Notes under the pieces: generated by a model | What the model was told of the DNA's origin: nothing | The model's database searches: none | The model's input: only the letters and a program-made list of their open reading frames with translations | Shown here: positions 28,731-34,020 of the stretch, piece by piece | Layout: each line of letters starts with the position of its first letter | How positions within the stretch are numbered: the stretch's first letter is position 1 | Position numbers and translations under genes: made by a program | Origin: Spirochaetaceae bacterium | GTDB lineage: Bacteria; Spirochaetota; Spirochaetia; Treponematales; Rectinemataceae | Direction of reading: 5' to 3' | Assembly (NCBI GenBank): GCA_025355995.1 | Contig: JANXYQ010000107.1 | Coordinates: 1 to 39,384 of the forward strand | Length of the DNA: 39,384 bases

Positions 28731-30593
28731 CTATAGCTTCTTGAAGCAGGACTCGATGATCGGGCCGAGGCTGGGCATCGCGAACCCGAGAGCCTCGACG
28801 ACTTCCCGCTCGGCGGAATGCTCCCAATCCATGAAGGGGTCGTCGTAGTGCGCCGCGATGAAGCCGAAGACCTGGTCCTCCGCGTCGTTAGCGGCCGTAT
28901 CGAAGAGGCCGTGGCTCCTCGACTGGCTGGCGAGCAGGGCGCGGCGGATGTGGTCGCGCACCTTCTCGAGGAAGATCTCCTTGTAGACGTCGTAGCCGCG
29001 CCCGGAGAGCTTGCGGATAGAGTCGGAGATCGAGCCGCGCTTGGCCCTGATCTCGCGGAAGGGCTCGGGGCCGGAAGGAGCTCGATTTAGAAGGCGCGAT
29101 CCCGTGGCCTTAGCCGGCGCGGGGGCGCGGGGCGCGGGGCTGCGGGGCGCGGGGGAGCGGGCGGTTACGGGTGCCTGCATGGGCGGAGCCGGGATGCGGC
29201 GCACGGGTGGCGCCGCGGTGCGCGAGGCCGCGCGAAGGCCCAGGCCTTCCTCGCGGGGCGGCGCCGGAGGCTTGCGGTTTCCCTGAACCGAGGCCGCGCG
29301 GGAGGTTGCTTCCCTGAGGGCGAAAGTTGGCGGTCTGGCGAAGGGGCTCTTGGGGCCCGAGTCCCTCGCGAAGCGCGTCGGCGGCTCGTCGCCCGCGGGG
29401 GGAGGCGGTATCGCGCCTTCCTTGACGGCGGCCCGGACCGCGTCCTCGGCGGTGAAGGACGCCCGCCGCACGCGGACCCTCGACTCCGGCGAGGGCCCCG
29501 GGCCGGCCCGGGTCGTCGCCTCGGGCCCGGGAGCGGCGAGCCGCTCGGCGACGGCGCGGGCCTCCATGCGCGCGCGGAGGCGACGCCACATGATCTGCAT
29601 GTAGAGGTCGCCGCTGACGGAGTAGTTGTAGCTCGTGGTCAGGATGGCGGCGACCGCGCTCAGTATCTCGTCGTCGGTGGAGCCGCGCGCGCGGCCGATC
29701 TTGATCGCCCGGAAGACCTCGAAGTGCCTGCCTCCGAATTTCCGGGAGTAGAGGAAAACGACCCTCTCGAAGGCGGCGTCTCCCGCGTATGGCCAATACT
29801 TGGCGCAGAGCGCGAGGACTTTGTCCTCGCGCCTCGAGAGGTCGTTCGAGATCTCCACGCGCGCTTTCTCCGCCTCGGTGAAGTTGATCCGGGCAGGGTC
29901 GAAATAGCTATGCCCCTCGGCCTCGGAGCTCTTGCGCTTCCTCTCGAGGCGCGCGCTGCGCGAGACGAAGTCGTAGCTTTCCTCCGAGGCTCCCGCGGAT
30001 GGCGCCGGGCGCGAGGCCGAGCGGCGCCTTTCCTCTATCGCGGCGCTGCGCGCGACGAAGTCGTACTCGGAAGGCGCATCAGCGCGGCTCACCGCGTCGT
30101 ACTCCCGCACGAGCTCGAGGGCGCGCCGCACCAGGACCTCGCGATGCGCGAGGATAGCGGCGAACTTATCGTAGCGGGAGAGGAGATCGAGGGCACCCTC
30201 GCTCTCGCCGGGAAGGCGCGCGAGGACGGACTCCACCGCCTTTAATGCGCGCAACGCGTCCGAGAGATCGGCCTTCTCGAGGGGCGCGACGATGAGGTCG
30301 ATGTTGGAGCGTATCCTGGCGGAGAGCCGGGCGGCGAAGTCGAGGACGAGGCCGTCCTGGCAGGACGCGTAGCGGGGATCGTTCTCGCGATAGAGCTTGA
30401 GCAGGAGGATGCGCGAGGTATCGTCGGGATAGCGGACGCGGAGGGCGCCGTTGTAGACGGATAAGGCCTGTCCCAGGCTCCCCGCCTTGCGCAGCTCGAA
30501 GTAGCGCTCGACGTCGGGGTCGCCTCCGTAGCGGAGGTCGGGGAAGACCAGCTTGACGATCTCCCTTTTTCTCTCGGTGCTCAGGCTGTCCAT
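28731..30593 (-). CDS. Large unknown protein with Pro/Ala-rich linker
   Basis: 620 residues from the ATG at 30593, chosen because a TATAAT promoter ends seven bases before it; an open frame to 30719 is less likely. No signal peptide. The N-terminal 170 residues are helical. Two copies of a motif YDFVxRSAxxExxRxS occur near residues 180 and 210. A helical domain (about 235-360) is followed by a roughly 170-residue proline/alanine/arginine-rich disordered stretch, then a folded C-terminal domain containing YDVYKEIFLEKVRDHIRRAL and DPFMDWEHSAEREVVEALGF. I recognise no family. The layout (two domains joined by a long flexible linker) suggests a scaffold or adaptor role, which is only a guess. Confidence 0.65.
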   Translation of the reverse strand: MDSLSTERKREIVKLVFPDLRYGGDPDVERYFELRKAGSLGQALSVYNGALRVRYPDDTSRILLLKLYRENDPRYASCQDGLVLDFAARLSARIRSNIDLIVAPLEKADLSDALRALKAVESVLARLPGESEGALDLLSRYDKFAAILAHREVLVRRALELVREYDAVSRADAPSEYDFVARSAAIEERRRSASRPAPSAGASEESYDFVSRSARLERKRKSSEAEGHSYFDPARINFTEAEKARVEISNDLSRREDKVLALCAKYWPYAGDAAFERVVFLYSRKFGGRHFEVFRAIKIGRARGSTDDEILSAVAAILTTSYNYSVSGDLYMQIMWRRLRARMEARAVAERLAAPGPEATTRAGPGPSPESRVRVRRASFTAEDAVRAAVKEGAIPPPPAGDEPPTRFARDSGPKSPFARPPTFALREATSRAASVQGNRKPPAPPREEGLGLRAASRTAAPPVRRIPAPPMQAPVTARSPAPRSPAPRAPAPAKATGSRLLNRAPSGPEPFREIRAKRGSISDSIRKLSGRGYDVYKEIFLEKVRDHIRRALLASQSRSHGLFDTAANDAEDQVFGFIAAHYDDPFMDWEHSAEREVVEALGFAMPSLGPIIESCFKKL

Positions 30594-30600
30594 CGCGGGG

Positions 30601-30629
30601 ATTATAGTCGCGGGAGCCTCCCGCGGCAA
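30601..30629 (-). promoter_or_regulatory. Promoter with embedded palindrome
   Basis: Minus strand: TTGCCG (30629-30624), 17-base spacer, perfect TATAAT (30606-30601), then seven bases to the ATG at 30593. A perfect palindrome with eight-base arms and one central base (30609-30625) fills the spacer, placed like an operator for a repressor dimer. Confidence 0.7.
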
Positions 30630-30651
30630 TGCCAATAAAACGGCCGCGGCT

Positions 30652-30710
30652 AGTGGCGAACATCCTGTACGCCACTGGCCTTGAAGAACGCTTCGCGTTC
30701 TTTTTCTTCT
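30652..30710 (+). other. Two hairpins, the second terminator-like
   Basis: First: AGTGGCG/CGCCACT (30652-30658 with 30670-30676, 11-base loop). Second: AAGAACGC/GCGTTCTT (30684-30691 with 30695-30702, loop TTC) followed by a T-rich tail to 30710. This would be a plus-strand terminator, but no plus-strand gene precedes it. It may end a small RNA or an antisense transcript. Confidence 0.4.
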
Positions 30711-30738
30711 CCTCGCCATCCTGGCTCGACGGTAGTGG

Positions 30739-30793: not shown

Positions 30794-31654
30794 TTACTGG
30801 AGGAGCGACATGACCTGCTGCGTTTTCTGATTGGCTTGGGCGAGCATCGCGTTTCCGGCCTGGGCGAGGATGCGGTTCTTGGTGTAGTTGACCATCTCGT
30901 TGGCCATATCGGTGTCCCTGATCCGGCTCTCGGCGGCCTGGAGGTTCTCCGCCCCCACGTCGATGCCCTTAATGGCGTGCTCGAGCCGGTTCTGGTAGGC
31001 GCCGAGGTCGGCGCGCTGCTTGTTGACCTTCTTGAGGGCCTGGTCCAGGGTGCCGATGGCGCGATTGGAATCGTCGGGCGACGCGACGTTCATTATCGTA
31101 TCGTCGCCGATATTCCTCACGCCGAGGGCCTTAGATGTCATCGTGCCGATGTAGACCTGCACTCGCTGGTCCATGTTGGATCCGATGTGGAACCACATGG
31201 AGCCGGTGACTTGATTCTGACCGTTGTCGCGCGCGAAGCGCCCGGTAAGAAGGTTGAGCCCGTTGAACTGCGCGTGGCTGGCTATCCGGTCGATCTCATC
31301 GACTAGCTGGCTTACCTCGACCTGGATCTGCATCCTGTCCTCGGACGTATACACGCCGTTGGATGCCTGGACCGCGAGCTCGCGGAGGCGCTGGATGATG
31401 TCCTGCGACTCCTGGAGATAGCCTTCCGTCGTCTGGATGAAGGAGATTCCGTCCTGCGCGTTCTTCGAGGCCCGCTCGAGGCCTCGGATCTGGCTGCGCA
31501 TTTTCTCGGAGACGGCGAGCCCTGAGGCGTCGTCCCCCGCGCGGTTGATCCGCATTCCCGAAGAGAGTTTTTCCATCCCCTTGGTCGTCTCGTCGTTAGT
31601 AACTCGGAGCGAACGATCCGCGAACATGGCGCTGAGATTGTGATTGATGATCAT
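30794..31654 (-). CDS. flaB: Periplasmic flagellar filament core protein FlaB
   Basis: 286 residues, the usual size for spirochaete FlaB. Seen: the flagellin N-terminus [18 protein letters not shown], then [20 protein letters not shown], the Toll-like receptor 5-type [21 protein letters not shown], and the C-terminal [20 protein letters not shown] ending in VMSLLQ. The central variable domain is absent, as expected for filaments enclosed in the periplasm. Made and exported through the flagellar type III system. AAAGGAG lies seven bases before the ATG, so translation is by the usual Shine-Dalgarno route. A sigma-28-type promoter is about 170 bases upstream. The best evidence for the phylum in this window. 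Confidence 0.97.
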
Positions 31655-31827
31655 GCCTTACTCCTTTAATGGCTCTACGGCGGCCTCGTAATGGCCGCCT
31701 CGGCTTCCCTGCCGGCTTTGAGCGCGCCGGTCCTTCGAACGTCCTCCGCGAATCCTTCCGCGGCGTCGACGCCAGGAAACCCCGGCCGTGCGCCGATCGC
31801 GCCCGCTCCGGTATTCCTACCATCCGA

Positions 31828-31854
31828 GTATCGGAACCGGGCCGCGGCCCTTTA
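31828..31854 (-). promoter_or_regulatory. Sigma-28 (FliA)-type promoter for flaB
   Basis: Minus strand: TAAA (31854-31851), 15-base GC-rich spacer, TCCGATAC (31835-31828), compared with the sigma-28 consensus TAAA-N15-GCCGATAA (six of eight in the -10). It predicts a leader of about 165 bases before flaB. The spacer is itself a near palindrome (GGGCCGCGGCCC). Confidence 0.65.
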
Positions 31855-31936
31855 GGGGAAAAGCGTGCGCCGCGCCGATTGACCGTATTGGCCGACGGCC
31901 GGCGCGCATGGTAGAGTGCCGGCCGAGGCTTATGCG

Positions 31937-32296
31937 ATGACCGTACGAAGAATGACCGAGATACTCGAGGCCAGGATCGCCTCCGGCGAGGACCAGATGG
32001 ACCTCGAGGTGAGCGCCGCCTGCGGTGCCGACCTGATGAGCGACGTGATGGCCTTCGTCAAGGAGAAGGTCGTCCTCCTGACGGGCCTCGTGAACCCGCA
32101 GGCGATACGCACCGCGGACCTCATGGACATCCGGGTCGTCGTGCTCGTACGCGGCAAGAGCCCGACCGAGGACATCGTGGCCATGGCCCGGGAGAACGGC
32201 ATGGTCCTGCTTTCTACCAAGTATTCGATGTTCCTCGCGTGCGGGAGGCTCTACGAGGCGGGCCTTCGCGGCGGGGGGATCAGGGAAATCGCGTAA
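31937..32296 (+). CDS. DRTGG-domain regulatory protein
   Basis: 119 residues from the ATG at 31937, with GAGG eight bases upstream. The whole protein is one DRTGG-like domain: MTEILEARIASGED, VSAACGADLMSDVMAFVKEK, LLTGLVNPQAIRTADLMDIR, VVLVRGKSP and a final MVLLSTKYSMFLACGRLYEAGL. DRTGG domains occur in front of serine kinases and CBS/phosphatase proteins and are thought to bind ligands; stand-alone copies are known beside hydrogenase-like genes in anaerobes. First gene of a three-gene operon with an anti-sigma-type ATPase and an [FeFe]-hydrogenase-like protein. Biochemical role unknown. Confidence 0.82.
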   Translation: MTVRRMTEILEARIASGEDQMDLEVSAACGADLMSDVMAFVKEKVVLLTGLVNPQAIRTADLMDIRVVVLVRGKSPTEDIVAMARENGMVLLSTKYSMFLACGRLYEAGLRGGGIREIA

Positions 32297-32311
32297 GCAG
32301 CGAGCGATCCC

Positions 32312-32722
32312 GTGAAGCTTAAATTCGAAGTCGGGGACGAGGACTTTTCCCTCGCCGGGAGGGCCAGCTCCGAGCTCAAGGGCGTGCTCAAGCGATTGGG
32401 CATAGGGCCCGACCTCGTCAGGAGGGCCTCGATCGCGATGTACGAGGGCGAGATCAACATGGTCATACACGCCGGCGGCGGCGTCGCCGAGGCGGAGATA
32501 GAGGCCGACCGGGTCGTCTTGACGCTGATCGACGCCGGGCCGGGCATACCCGACCTGTCCCTCGCCATGACCGAGGGCTGGTCGACCGCGCCCGACCGCT
32601 TCCGCGAGCTGGGCTTCGGCGCCGGGATGGGCCTGCCCAACATGAGGCGGAACTGCGACGAGTTCGACATCGAGAGCGAGGTCGGGAAGGGCACGAGCGT
32701 GCGTATGGTCATACGCCTATGA
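32312..32722 (+). CDS. Anti-sigma-factor-like ATP-binding protein (HATPase_c)
   Basis: 136 residues. A stand-alone GHKL ATPase domain of the RsbW/RsbT type: N-box YEGEINMVIHAGGG at about 45-58 (Glu-x2-Asn-x4-His), G1 DAGPGIPD at about 80, and G2 GFGAGMGLPNMRR at about 105. Such proteins are serine kinases that phosphorylate a partner or bind a sigma factor. No STAS partner or SpoIIE phosphatase is in the window. GTG start 15 bases after the DRTGG gene; its TGA overlaps the start of the hydrogenase-like gene, indicating tight co-expression. Confidence 0.86.
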   Translation: MKLKFEVGDEDFSLAGRASSELKGVLKRLGIGPDLVRRASIAMYEGEINMVIHAGGGVAEAEIEADRVVLTLIDAGPGIPDLSLAMTEGWSTAPDRFRELGFGAGMGLPNMRRNCDEFDIESEVGKGTSVRMVIRL

Positions 32723-34020
32723 GCGCCGAGGACTCCCCCGCCCCCCACTCGGTCCTTCTGGATCCCGAGAAGTGCGTCGGCTGCACGACCTGCATAAAGA
32801 AATGCCCCACCGAGGCCATACGCGTCCGCAAGGGCCGCGCCAGCATAATCGCGGAGCGCTGCATCGACTGCGGCGAGTGCATACGCACCTGCCCCCACGG
32901 CGCGAAGAGGGCCGTCTCCGATCCCCTGTCCATGATCGAAGGCTACCGGGTCAAGGTGGCGGTGCCGGCTCCTACGCTGTATAGCCAGTACGACGAGGGA
33001 CGCAGCGTGAACCGCGTGCTCTCGGGACTGCTCGAGCTCGGCTTCGACGAGGTATTCGAGGTCGCCGAGGCGGCGGAGATCGTGACCGCGGCCACCAAGG
33101 CCCTGCTCGCGCACGACGGCACCCTTCCCCGGCCGCTGATCTCGAGCGCCTGCCCCGCCGTGGTCAAGCTCGTGCAGCTGCGCTTCCCCAGCCTCATCCC
33201 CCACCTGGCCCCGCTGATCCCCCCGATGGAGGCGGCGGCTCGCATCGTCAAGGATAGGCTGCACGCCGGCGAGGACGGCGTCGGGGTTTTCTTCATCACG
33301 CCCTGCGCGGGCAAGGTCACCGTCACGCGGGCCCCGCTGGGCTACGCGCGCTCCGCCCTCGACGGGGTGATCGGGCTACGAGACATCTACCTGCCCCTGC
33401 GCGCGGCCATTGCGGCGGCGCCGGAGCGGGTCCTCGCCCACGCGGGGCGGATGGGCCTCGAGTGGGCGAGGACGGAGGGCGAATGCGAGGCGGTGGGCGA
33501 GCGGCGCTCCATCTCGGTGGACGGCATCGGCAACGTCATCGGGGTGCTCGAGGCGCTCGAGAACGGCAGCATGAAGGATCTCGTCTACATCGAGGCCCTC
33601 GCCTGCCCCGCGGGCTGCGTCGGAGGTCCGCTTACCGTAGAGAACCCCTATATCGCGAAGACGCGACTGCGCAACCGCGAGGAGAGCGCGCCGCCGCAAT
33701 CCGCCGGCCCGCGGCGCTACGAGAGCCTGGGGGATCTGGGCTGGACCGAGGCGGTGAAGGCCCGCTCGGCCCTCGTCCTCGACCCGGACATGCTGAAGGC
33801 CCTCGTGATGATGGAGGAGATAGAGTTCCGGGCGAGCGGCTTGCCGGGCCTCGATTGCGGCTCCTGCGGGGCACCGAGCTGCAAGGCCCTGGCCGAGGAC
33901 ATCGTGAGGGGCACCGCGATCGAGTCGGATTGCGTGTTCAAGCTCAGGGACAGGGTGCGCGAGCTCGCGAAGGAGCTCATGGCCCTAGAAGAGATACGGC
34001 CTCCGGGCCTGGATAGGTAG
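32719..34020 (+). CDS. [FeFe]-hydrogenase-like putative redox/H2 sensor
   Basis: 433 residues. Domains: two [4Fe-4S] ferredoxin motifs (Cys19/22/25/29 and Cys48/51/54/58), an H-cluster-like domain (about 80-310), and a C-terminal Fe-S domain of the PF04060 type (Cys380/383/388/405). The four cysteines that hold the H-cluster are present: Cys145 in SSACPA (motif L1), Cys196 in TPCAGK (L2), and Cys296 and Cys300 in ALACPAGCVGG (L3). The adjacent proton-relay cysteine of catalytic enzymes (TSCCP) is Ala144 here, as described for putative sensory hydrogenases. No accessory maturase genes are visible. Coupled to an anti-sigma-type ATPase, so signalling is more likely than bulk H2 turnover. Confidence 0.85.
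   Translation: MSAEDSPAPHSVLLDPEKCVGCTTCIKKCPTEAIRVRKGRASIIAERCIDCGECIRTCPHGAKRAVSDPLSMIEGYRVKVAVPAPTLYSQYDEGRSVNRVLSGLLELGFDEVFEVAEAAEIVTAATKALLAHDGTLPRPLISSACPAVVKLVQLRFPSLIPHLAPLIPPMEAAARIVKDRLHAGEDGVGVFFITPCAGKVTVTRAPLGYARSALDGVIGLRDIYLPLRAAIAAAPERVLAHAGRMGLEWARTEGECEAVGERRSISVDGIGNVIGVLEALENGSMKDLVYIEALACPAGCVGGPLTVENPYIAKTRLRNREESAPPQSAGPRRYESLGDLGWTEAVKARSALVLDPDMLKALVMMEEIEFRASGLPGLDCGSCGAPSCKALAEDIVRGTAIESDCVFKLRDRVRELAKELMALEEIRPPGLDR

Follow-up and report, generated by a model that had tools for sequence, protein, structure and literature searches.

Three consecutive plus-strand genes at 31937-34020 of a 39,384-nucleotide stretch of Spirochaetaceae DNA (contig JANXYQ010000107.1, positions 1 to 39,384; hereafter the window) appear to form a stand-alone signalling operon of the group D (M2e) sensory hydrogenase (HydS) kind, a reading to which we give a probability of about 0.55. 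The first gene (31937-32296) encodes a single-domain DRTGG protein of 119 amino acids (DRTGG1; Pfam DRTGG E 2.2e-6, above the curated cut-off), the second (32312-32722, GTG start) a GHKL ATPase of 136 amino acids with a SpoIIAB/RsbW fold (HATPase_c 4.9e-9; HATPase_c_2 6.7e-9), and the third (32719-34020) a HydS-type [FeFe]-hydrogenase homologue of 433 amino acids (Fe_hyd_lg_C 5.2e-28; PF04060 FeS 5.9e-12; Fer4). These Pfam matches bear out the three protein identities proposed in the initial annotation. The translational coupling of ATPase and HydS that it described is likewise seen in the sequence itself, where the stop codon of the ATPase and the start codon of HydS overlap in an ATGA at 32719-32722 (plus strand), and a 4-base overlap is the commonest spacing among homologues (9/67).

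By its features the third protein belongs with TamHydS among the putative sensory hydrogenases of group D (M2e). Its H-cluster ligands are Cys145, Cys196, Cys296 and Cys300, with Ala144 at the proton-relay position, and it carries two N-terminal [4Fe-4S] motifs (Cys19/22/25/29 and Cys48/51/54/58) and a C-terminal Cx2Cx4Cx16C site (Cys380/383/388/405), confirming the H-cluster cysteines, the Ala144 and the three further Fe-S sites named in the initial annotation. With TamHydS from Thermoanaerobacter mathranii, through which M2e/group D enzymes were first characterised, it shares the domain layout, the replacement of Cys299, Ser/Thr in place of Met353, the C-terminal Cx2Cx4Cx16C site, the lack of a PAS domain and an adjoining HATPase gene (PMC8163306, PMC6984386). 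TmHydS of Thermotoga maritima (group C/M2f) also resembles the window protein, having Ala (A131) instead of the relay Cys and a C-terminal [4Fe-4S] cluster (PMC10055695, PMC13104023), but it bears a PAS domain at its C-terminus, as group C proteins do, whereas window HydS gave no Pfam match to PAS. In a 34-row tree, 19 HydS rows, including the window protein and the T. wiegelii orthologue (L077; 49% identical to window HydS, with the DRTGG-ATPase-HydS order shared), form one clade with support of 100/100 apart from group A; the tree has long branches, and the placement of a group C-like row on one of them is uncertain. Group D genes are 'often' located upstream of a group A hydrogenase (PMC8163306), a location that is usual for the group and does not define it. 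Whereas the TamHydS gene precedes those of a bifurcating group A hydrogenase, the window trio stands alone, hydABC lying on another contig (C59), and no HydE/F/G was found.

From a homologue scan with one genome per species, the best 80 of 570 confirmed relatives were kept. The conservation of these residues was followed across 111 homologous loci from Clostridia and Spirochaetes, in which some species are counted twice through the use of two collections. All four H-cluster ligand cysteines are present in 111/111 homologues, and position 194 (M353 in CpI) is Ser/Thr in 110/111, being Thr194 in window HydS. Since position 144, the Cys299 proton-relay position, is Ala in 100 and Ser in the other 11 homologues, Ala144 is a family trait, a hallmark of the subgroup and no peculiarity of the window copy. 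Nor, by analogy, is it the mark of a dead enzyme: group C/D enzymes with Ala at the relay position are active, and the A131C substitution lowers the activity of TmHydS (PMC10055695), which weakens the description 'proton-relay-less' as far as it suggests a non-catalytic protein. Group D HydS takes up a synthetic [2Fe] cofactor and turns H2 over slowly (PMC8163306, PMC13104023). For TamHydS, H2 is reported to alter the secondary structure and to leave the C-terminal cluster unreduced (PMC13104023).

The three genes belong together. Comparison of neighbourhoods, which the initial annotation had suggested, places the ATPase beside HydS in 108 of the 111 loci, DRTGG in 99 and both in 98, and at least two of the exceptions (L083, L095) sit at contig ends. 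The joint recurrence of the genes at roughly 45-88% identity across different phyla is far beyond chance. In Clostridia the trio usually precedes DRTGG2-PHP-HydC-kinase-2Fe2S-HydB-HydA, in line with the description of M2e genes as adjoining kinase-like genes and lying upstream of bifurcating hydrogenases (PMC3561251, PMC8163306). Another 25 loci from Spirochaetes, each with Ser144, keep the ATPase (25/25), and no DRTGG is detectable in them within about 1.5 kb of HydS. Because this subclade keeps the ATPase without DRTGG, the conserved core is the ATPase-HydS pair, with DRTGG as a usual third member that cannot be a universal partner. Fusion proteins of DRTGG, ATPase and HydS, sought as evidence of contact, were not found, and deviant gene orders at L057 and L134 were set aside as most likely artefacts of stop-to-stop ORF starts. 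We also observed a divergent HydS-like subgroup (L207-L216; e.g. L207, G227:C1:2493300-2496600) of about 35% identity, in which Phe/Tyr stands at the Cys299 position and the A-P pocket motif is broken, but every ligand cysteine is retained, as are DRTGG and ATPase as neighbours.

In the window the trio is solitary. A divergent flagellin gene (30794-31654, minus) lies upstream, and a convergent short ORF overlaps the end of the trio, with a glycoside hydrolase beyond. The flagellin-side and hydrolase neighbours are found again in related Spirochaete loci, and these recurring flanking genes are ordinary synteny; a 662-amino-acid protein (28731-30719, minus) with no Pfam match also recurs on the flagellin side. 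No sigma-70-like promoter was found upstream of the trio. A conserved TCCGA-N3-TCGGA upstream was considered as an operator of the trio and rejected, as the minus strand there reads TAAA-N15-TCCGATAC (31818-31860). This sequence precedes the flagellin gene, fits a flagellar promoter of the sigma-28 type and is for the most part kept in the related loci L056, L058 and L059.

The ATPase resembles the kinases of partner-switching systems. The nearest solved structure to its predicted model (pLDDT 94) is SpoIIAB (TM 0.82), followed by RsbW, which agrees with the anti-sigma type first assigned to it, and Glu45 and Asn49, both invariant, line up with the Glu and Asn of the SpoIIAB N-box, the ATP-binding motifs being invariant as well; its score against the NCBIfam anti-sigma F model is 45, below the cut-off of 135. 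From this similarity of fold, we infer that the ATPase may act by partner switching. The DRTGG model (pLDDT 87) is nearest to AF1212, the CBS-DRTGG region of the C. perfringens pyrophosphatase and the N-domain of HPr kinase (TM 0.65-0.78). The likeness to these proteins is one of fold, and the window DRTGG differs from them in being a protein of its own. Its D-L/M-M-S-D motif (DLMSDV; Ser35) is nearly invariant, Cys29 and Cys102 are near-invariant, and a DL[LM]S motif occurs in 97/99 DRTGG1 and in 38/44 DRTGG2 sequences; DLMSDV was not seen in the aligned AF1212 sequence.

In spoIIA/rsb operons the genes follow the order STAS-kinase-sigma. The window module is like SpoIIAB/RsbW with SpoIIAA/RsbV in ATPase fold, in the N-box Glu/Asn and in an analogous three-gene order; unlike those systems it contains neither a STAS antagonist nor a sigma factor, and none of the genes conserved next to the trio was seen to encode a STAS protein or a sigma factor. 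Judging from operon position and motif, the ATPase may have DRTGG as its partner or substrate where those systems have the STAS antagonist. The proposal that H2 or redox state is passed to a partner switch is supported in part: fold and gene linkage bear it out, but the conserved set includes no STAS or sigma factor gene, and the maturases HydE, HydF and HydG were not found in the genome.

In the stand-alone signalling operon that we favour, HydS would use its N-terminal ferredoxin-like domain and its H-domain to read the state of the reducing pool, and the state of the H-domain would be passed to the ATPase by a conformational change. DRTGG, at the gene position of the STAS antagonist in spoIIA/rsb operons, is the leading candidate for the partner, and its Ser35 for the acceptor. 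The operon probably serves to control redox enzymes of fermentation, for example HydABC, whose genes follow the trio in Clostridia; in the window genome hydABC is on another contig. Counting against this explanation, we know of no group D protein with a demonstrated sensing role, partner or target. The flow could also run the other way, with HydS as a client, a slow H2-cycling or electron-transfer enzyme whose activity or assembly is controlled by the ATPase and DRTGG much as SpoIIAB controls sigma-F. The DRTGG-ATPase-HydS order does mirror STAS-kinase-sigma, and TamHydS and TmHydS are catalytically active (PMC8163306, PMC10055695), but high H2 affinity, low rates and a position upstream of catalytic hydrogenases favour a sensor (PMC8163306, PMC3561251), and we regard this reversal as improbable. 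That the mechanism is not worked out, as the initial annotation remarked, agrees with the literature, in which the identification of HydS interaction partners is called for (PMC13104023).

What HydS would sense in the favoured signalling operon depends on the host. In hosts that make a full H-cluster the signal would be H2; in the window host, if HydEFG is truly absent, it would more likely be the redox or ferredoxin state. The window genome (G000; 4.50 Mb, 95.1% complete) gave no match to HydE or HydG, an absence that is strong and, at this completeness, not final, and for HydF it gave only GTPase-domain matches under the cut-off. This result partly refutes the earlier proposal, which had been tied to the presence of HydEFG. 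Because HydE/F/G were not found there, H2 as the signal in the window organism is doubtful, and no likelier than ferredoxin or redox state. When the window genome was taken together with 58 relatives, 15 of the 59 genomes had HydE, 17 HydF and 16 HydG, the positives being largely the same genomes and the genes often clustered. The search for maturases evidently works, since the three genes are found together in relatives. HydE/F/G were also missing from the same-genus G001 and from G002, G003, G009 (99% complete), G015, G017 and G048 (98%, 10 contigs); G001, G009 and G048 each bear a HydS.

A true H2 sensor with a complete H-cluster would place HydEFG in the unassembled 5% of the window genome, or among genes that were missed. 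One gap could remove all three, clustered as they often are in relatives, and the close relative G004, whose HydS is 79% identical, carries HydE, HydF and HydG; P85, K199, T194 and the four cysteines of HydS are conserved, and the HydA on contig C59 has an intact TSCC/MPCTAK/CRGGC site. Chance gaps, however, cannot account for every absence of HydE/F/G among the relatives. Two complete single-contig genomes of the same order (G031, G034; L147, L149) have an intact group A HydA and no HydE/F/G, so incomplete assembly cannot cover all cases, and we consider the complete H-cluster unlikely for this host.

The pattern extends across the class. Among 296 genomes at least 90% complete, in which HydG was the maturase searched for, 73 contain a HydS-like protein and 44 of these 73 lack HydG. 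For HydS of at least 41% identity, HydG was missing in 17 of 37 genomes of this class-wide sample, including all sampled members of the two lineages f15/g54 and f25. These absences, complete in some of the sampled lineages, would fit a HydS that in maturase-less hosts holds [4Fe-4S] clusters, including the H-domain cubane, and no [2Fe], and reports ferredoxin/NADH state via the ATPase, which is a variant of the favoured explanation for the window host. The Phe/Tyr subgroup with the broken A-P motif points the same way, keeping the trio and the ligand cysteines in complete genomes without detected HydG (G227, G241, G256, G314), but it is also present in the HydG-bearing genomes G079, G097 and G262. 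Furthermore, residues expected to serve [2Fe] alone (Pro85, Lys199 and Ser/Thr194 in HydS, in HydA also C299 and M353) are equally conserved without maturases: these HydS residues and the ligand cysteines are kept in 34/34 HydS sequences from genomes with no maturase found versus 21/21 from genomes with one, and the bifurcating HydA of maturase-less genomes keeps the equivalents of C299, C300, C355, M353, C499, C503 and K358. The HydS pocket of HydG-less genomes was also examined for relaxation, which would hint at cofactor loss, and none was seen. Equal pocket conservation with and without maturases suggests a [2Fe] site that continues to be filled or has been lost only recently, which leaves the cubane-only sensor a somewhat doubtful possibility, if a better one than the complete H-cluster.

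Several spirochaete lineages, that of the window included, appear to combine HydS (and HydABC) having an intact [FeFe] pocket with a lack of HydE/F/G. Tentatively, and at rather less than even odds, we take this combination to point either to another maturation route or to a HydS that senses redox state with its cubanes only and signals to a SpoIIAB-like kinase, DRTGG replacing STAS; as a third option, HydE/F/G may have been lost or missed repeatedly in such hosts. A literature search outside subscription papers, and hence weak as evidence of absence, found no published HydA without HydEFG in spirochaetes.

Two further loci of the window genome encode hydrogenase-like proteins. L023 (G000:C59:36000-47500) has the order HydC-kinase-2Fe2S-HydB-HydA and no adjoining HydS; no other intact operon for a bifurcating hydrogenase was found in the genome. 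L022 (G000:C119:17000-30000) encodes a homologue of HydA in which Ser occupies the position of the Cys300 ligand; its gene adjoins those of a 1279-amino-acid NuoF-GltD fusion and of another lone anti-sigma-like ATPase. This homologue was rejected as a client hydrogenase, given the Ser in place of the Cys300 ligand and the NuoF-GltD fusion as its partner, and we take the operon to be of the Sporomusa-type Nfn (Stn) kind and no hydrogenase.

The set of DRTGG, SpoIIAB-like kinase and HydS is widespread, little understood and already known, and the window copy adds a spirochaete member to it; a literature search confined to papers outside subscription yielded no published account of a DRTGG-HydS link, which is weak evidence of absence. 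The gene set itself is well conserved, and the interesting point of the window copy is its apparently maturase-less host. Group D HydS proteins are biochemically studied candidate H2 sensors, and the near-universal pairing of ATPase and HydS, usually with DRTGG, names candidate partners for them. Spirochaetes that bear HydS and lack the maturases make the need of HydS signalling for an H-cluster testable across hosts.
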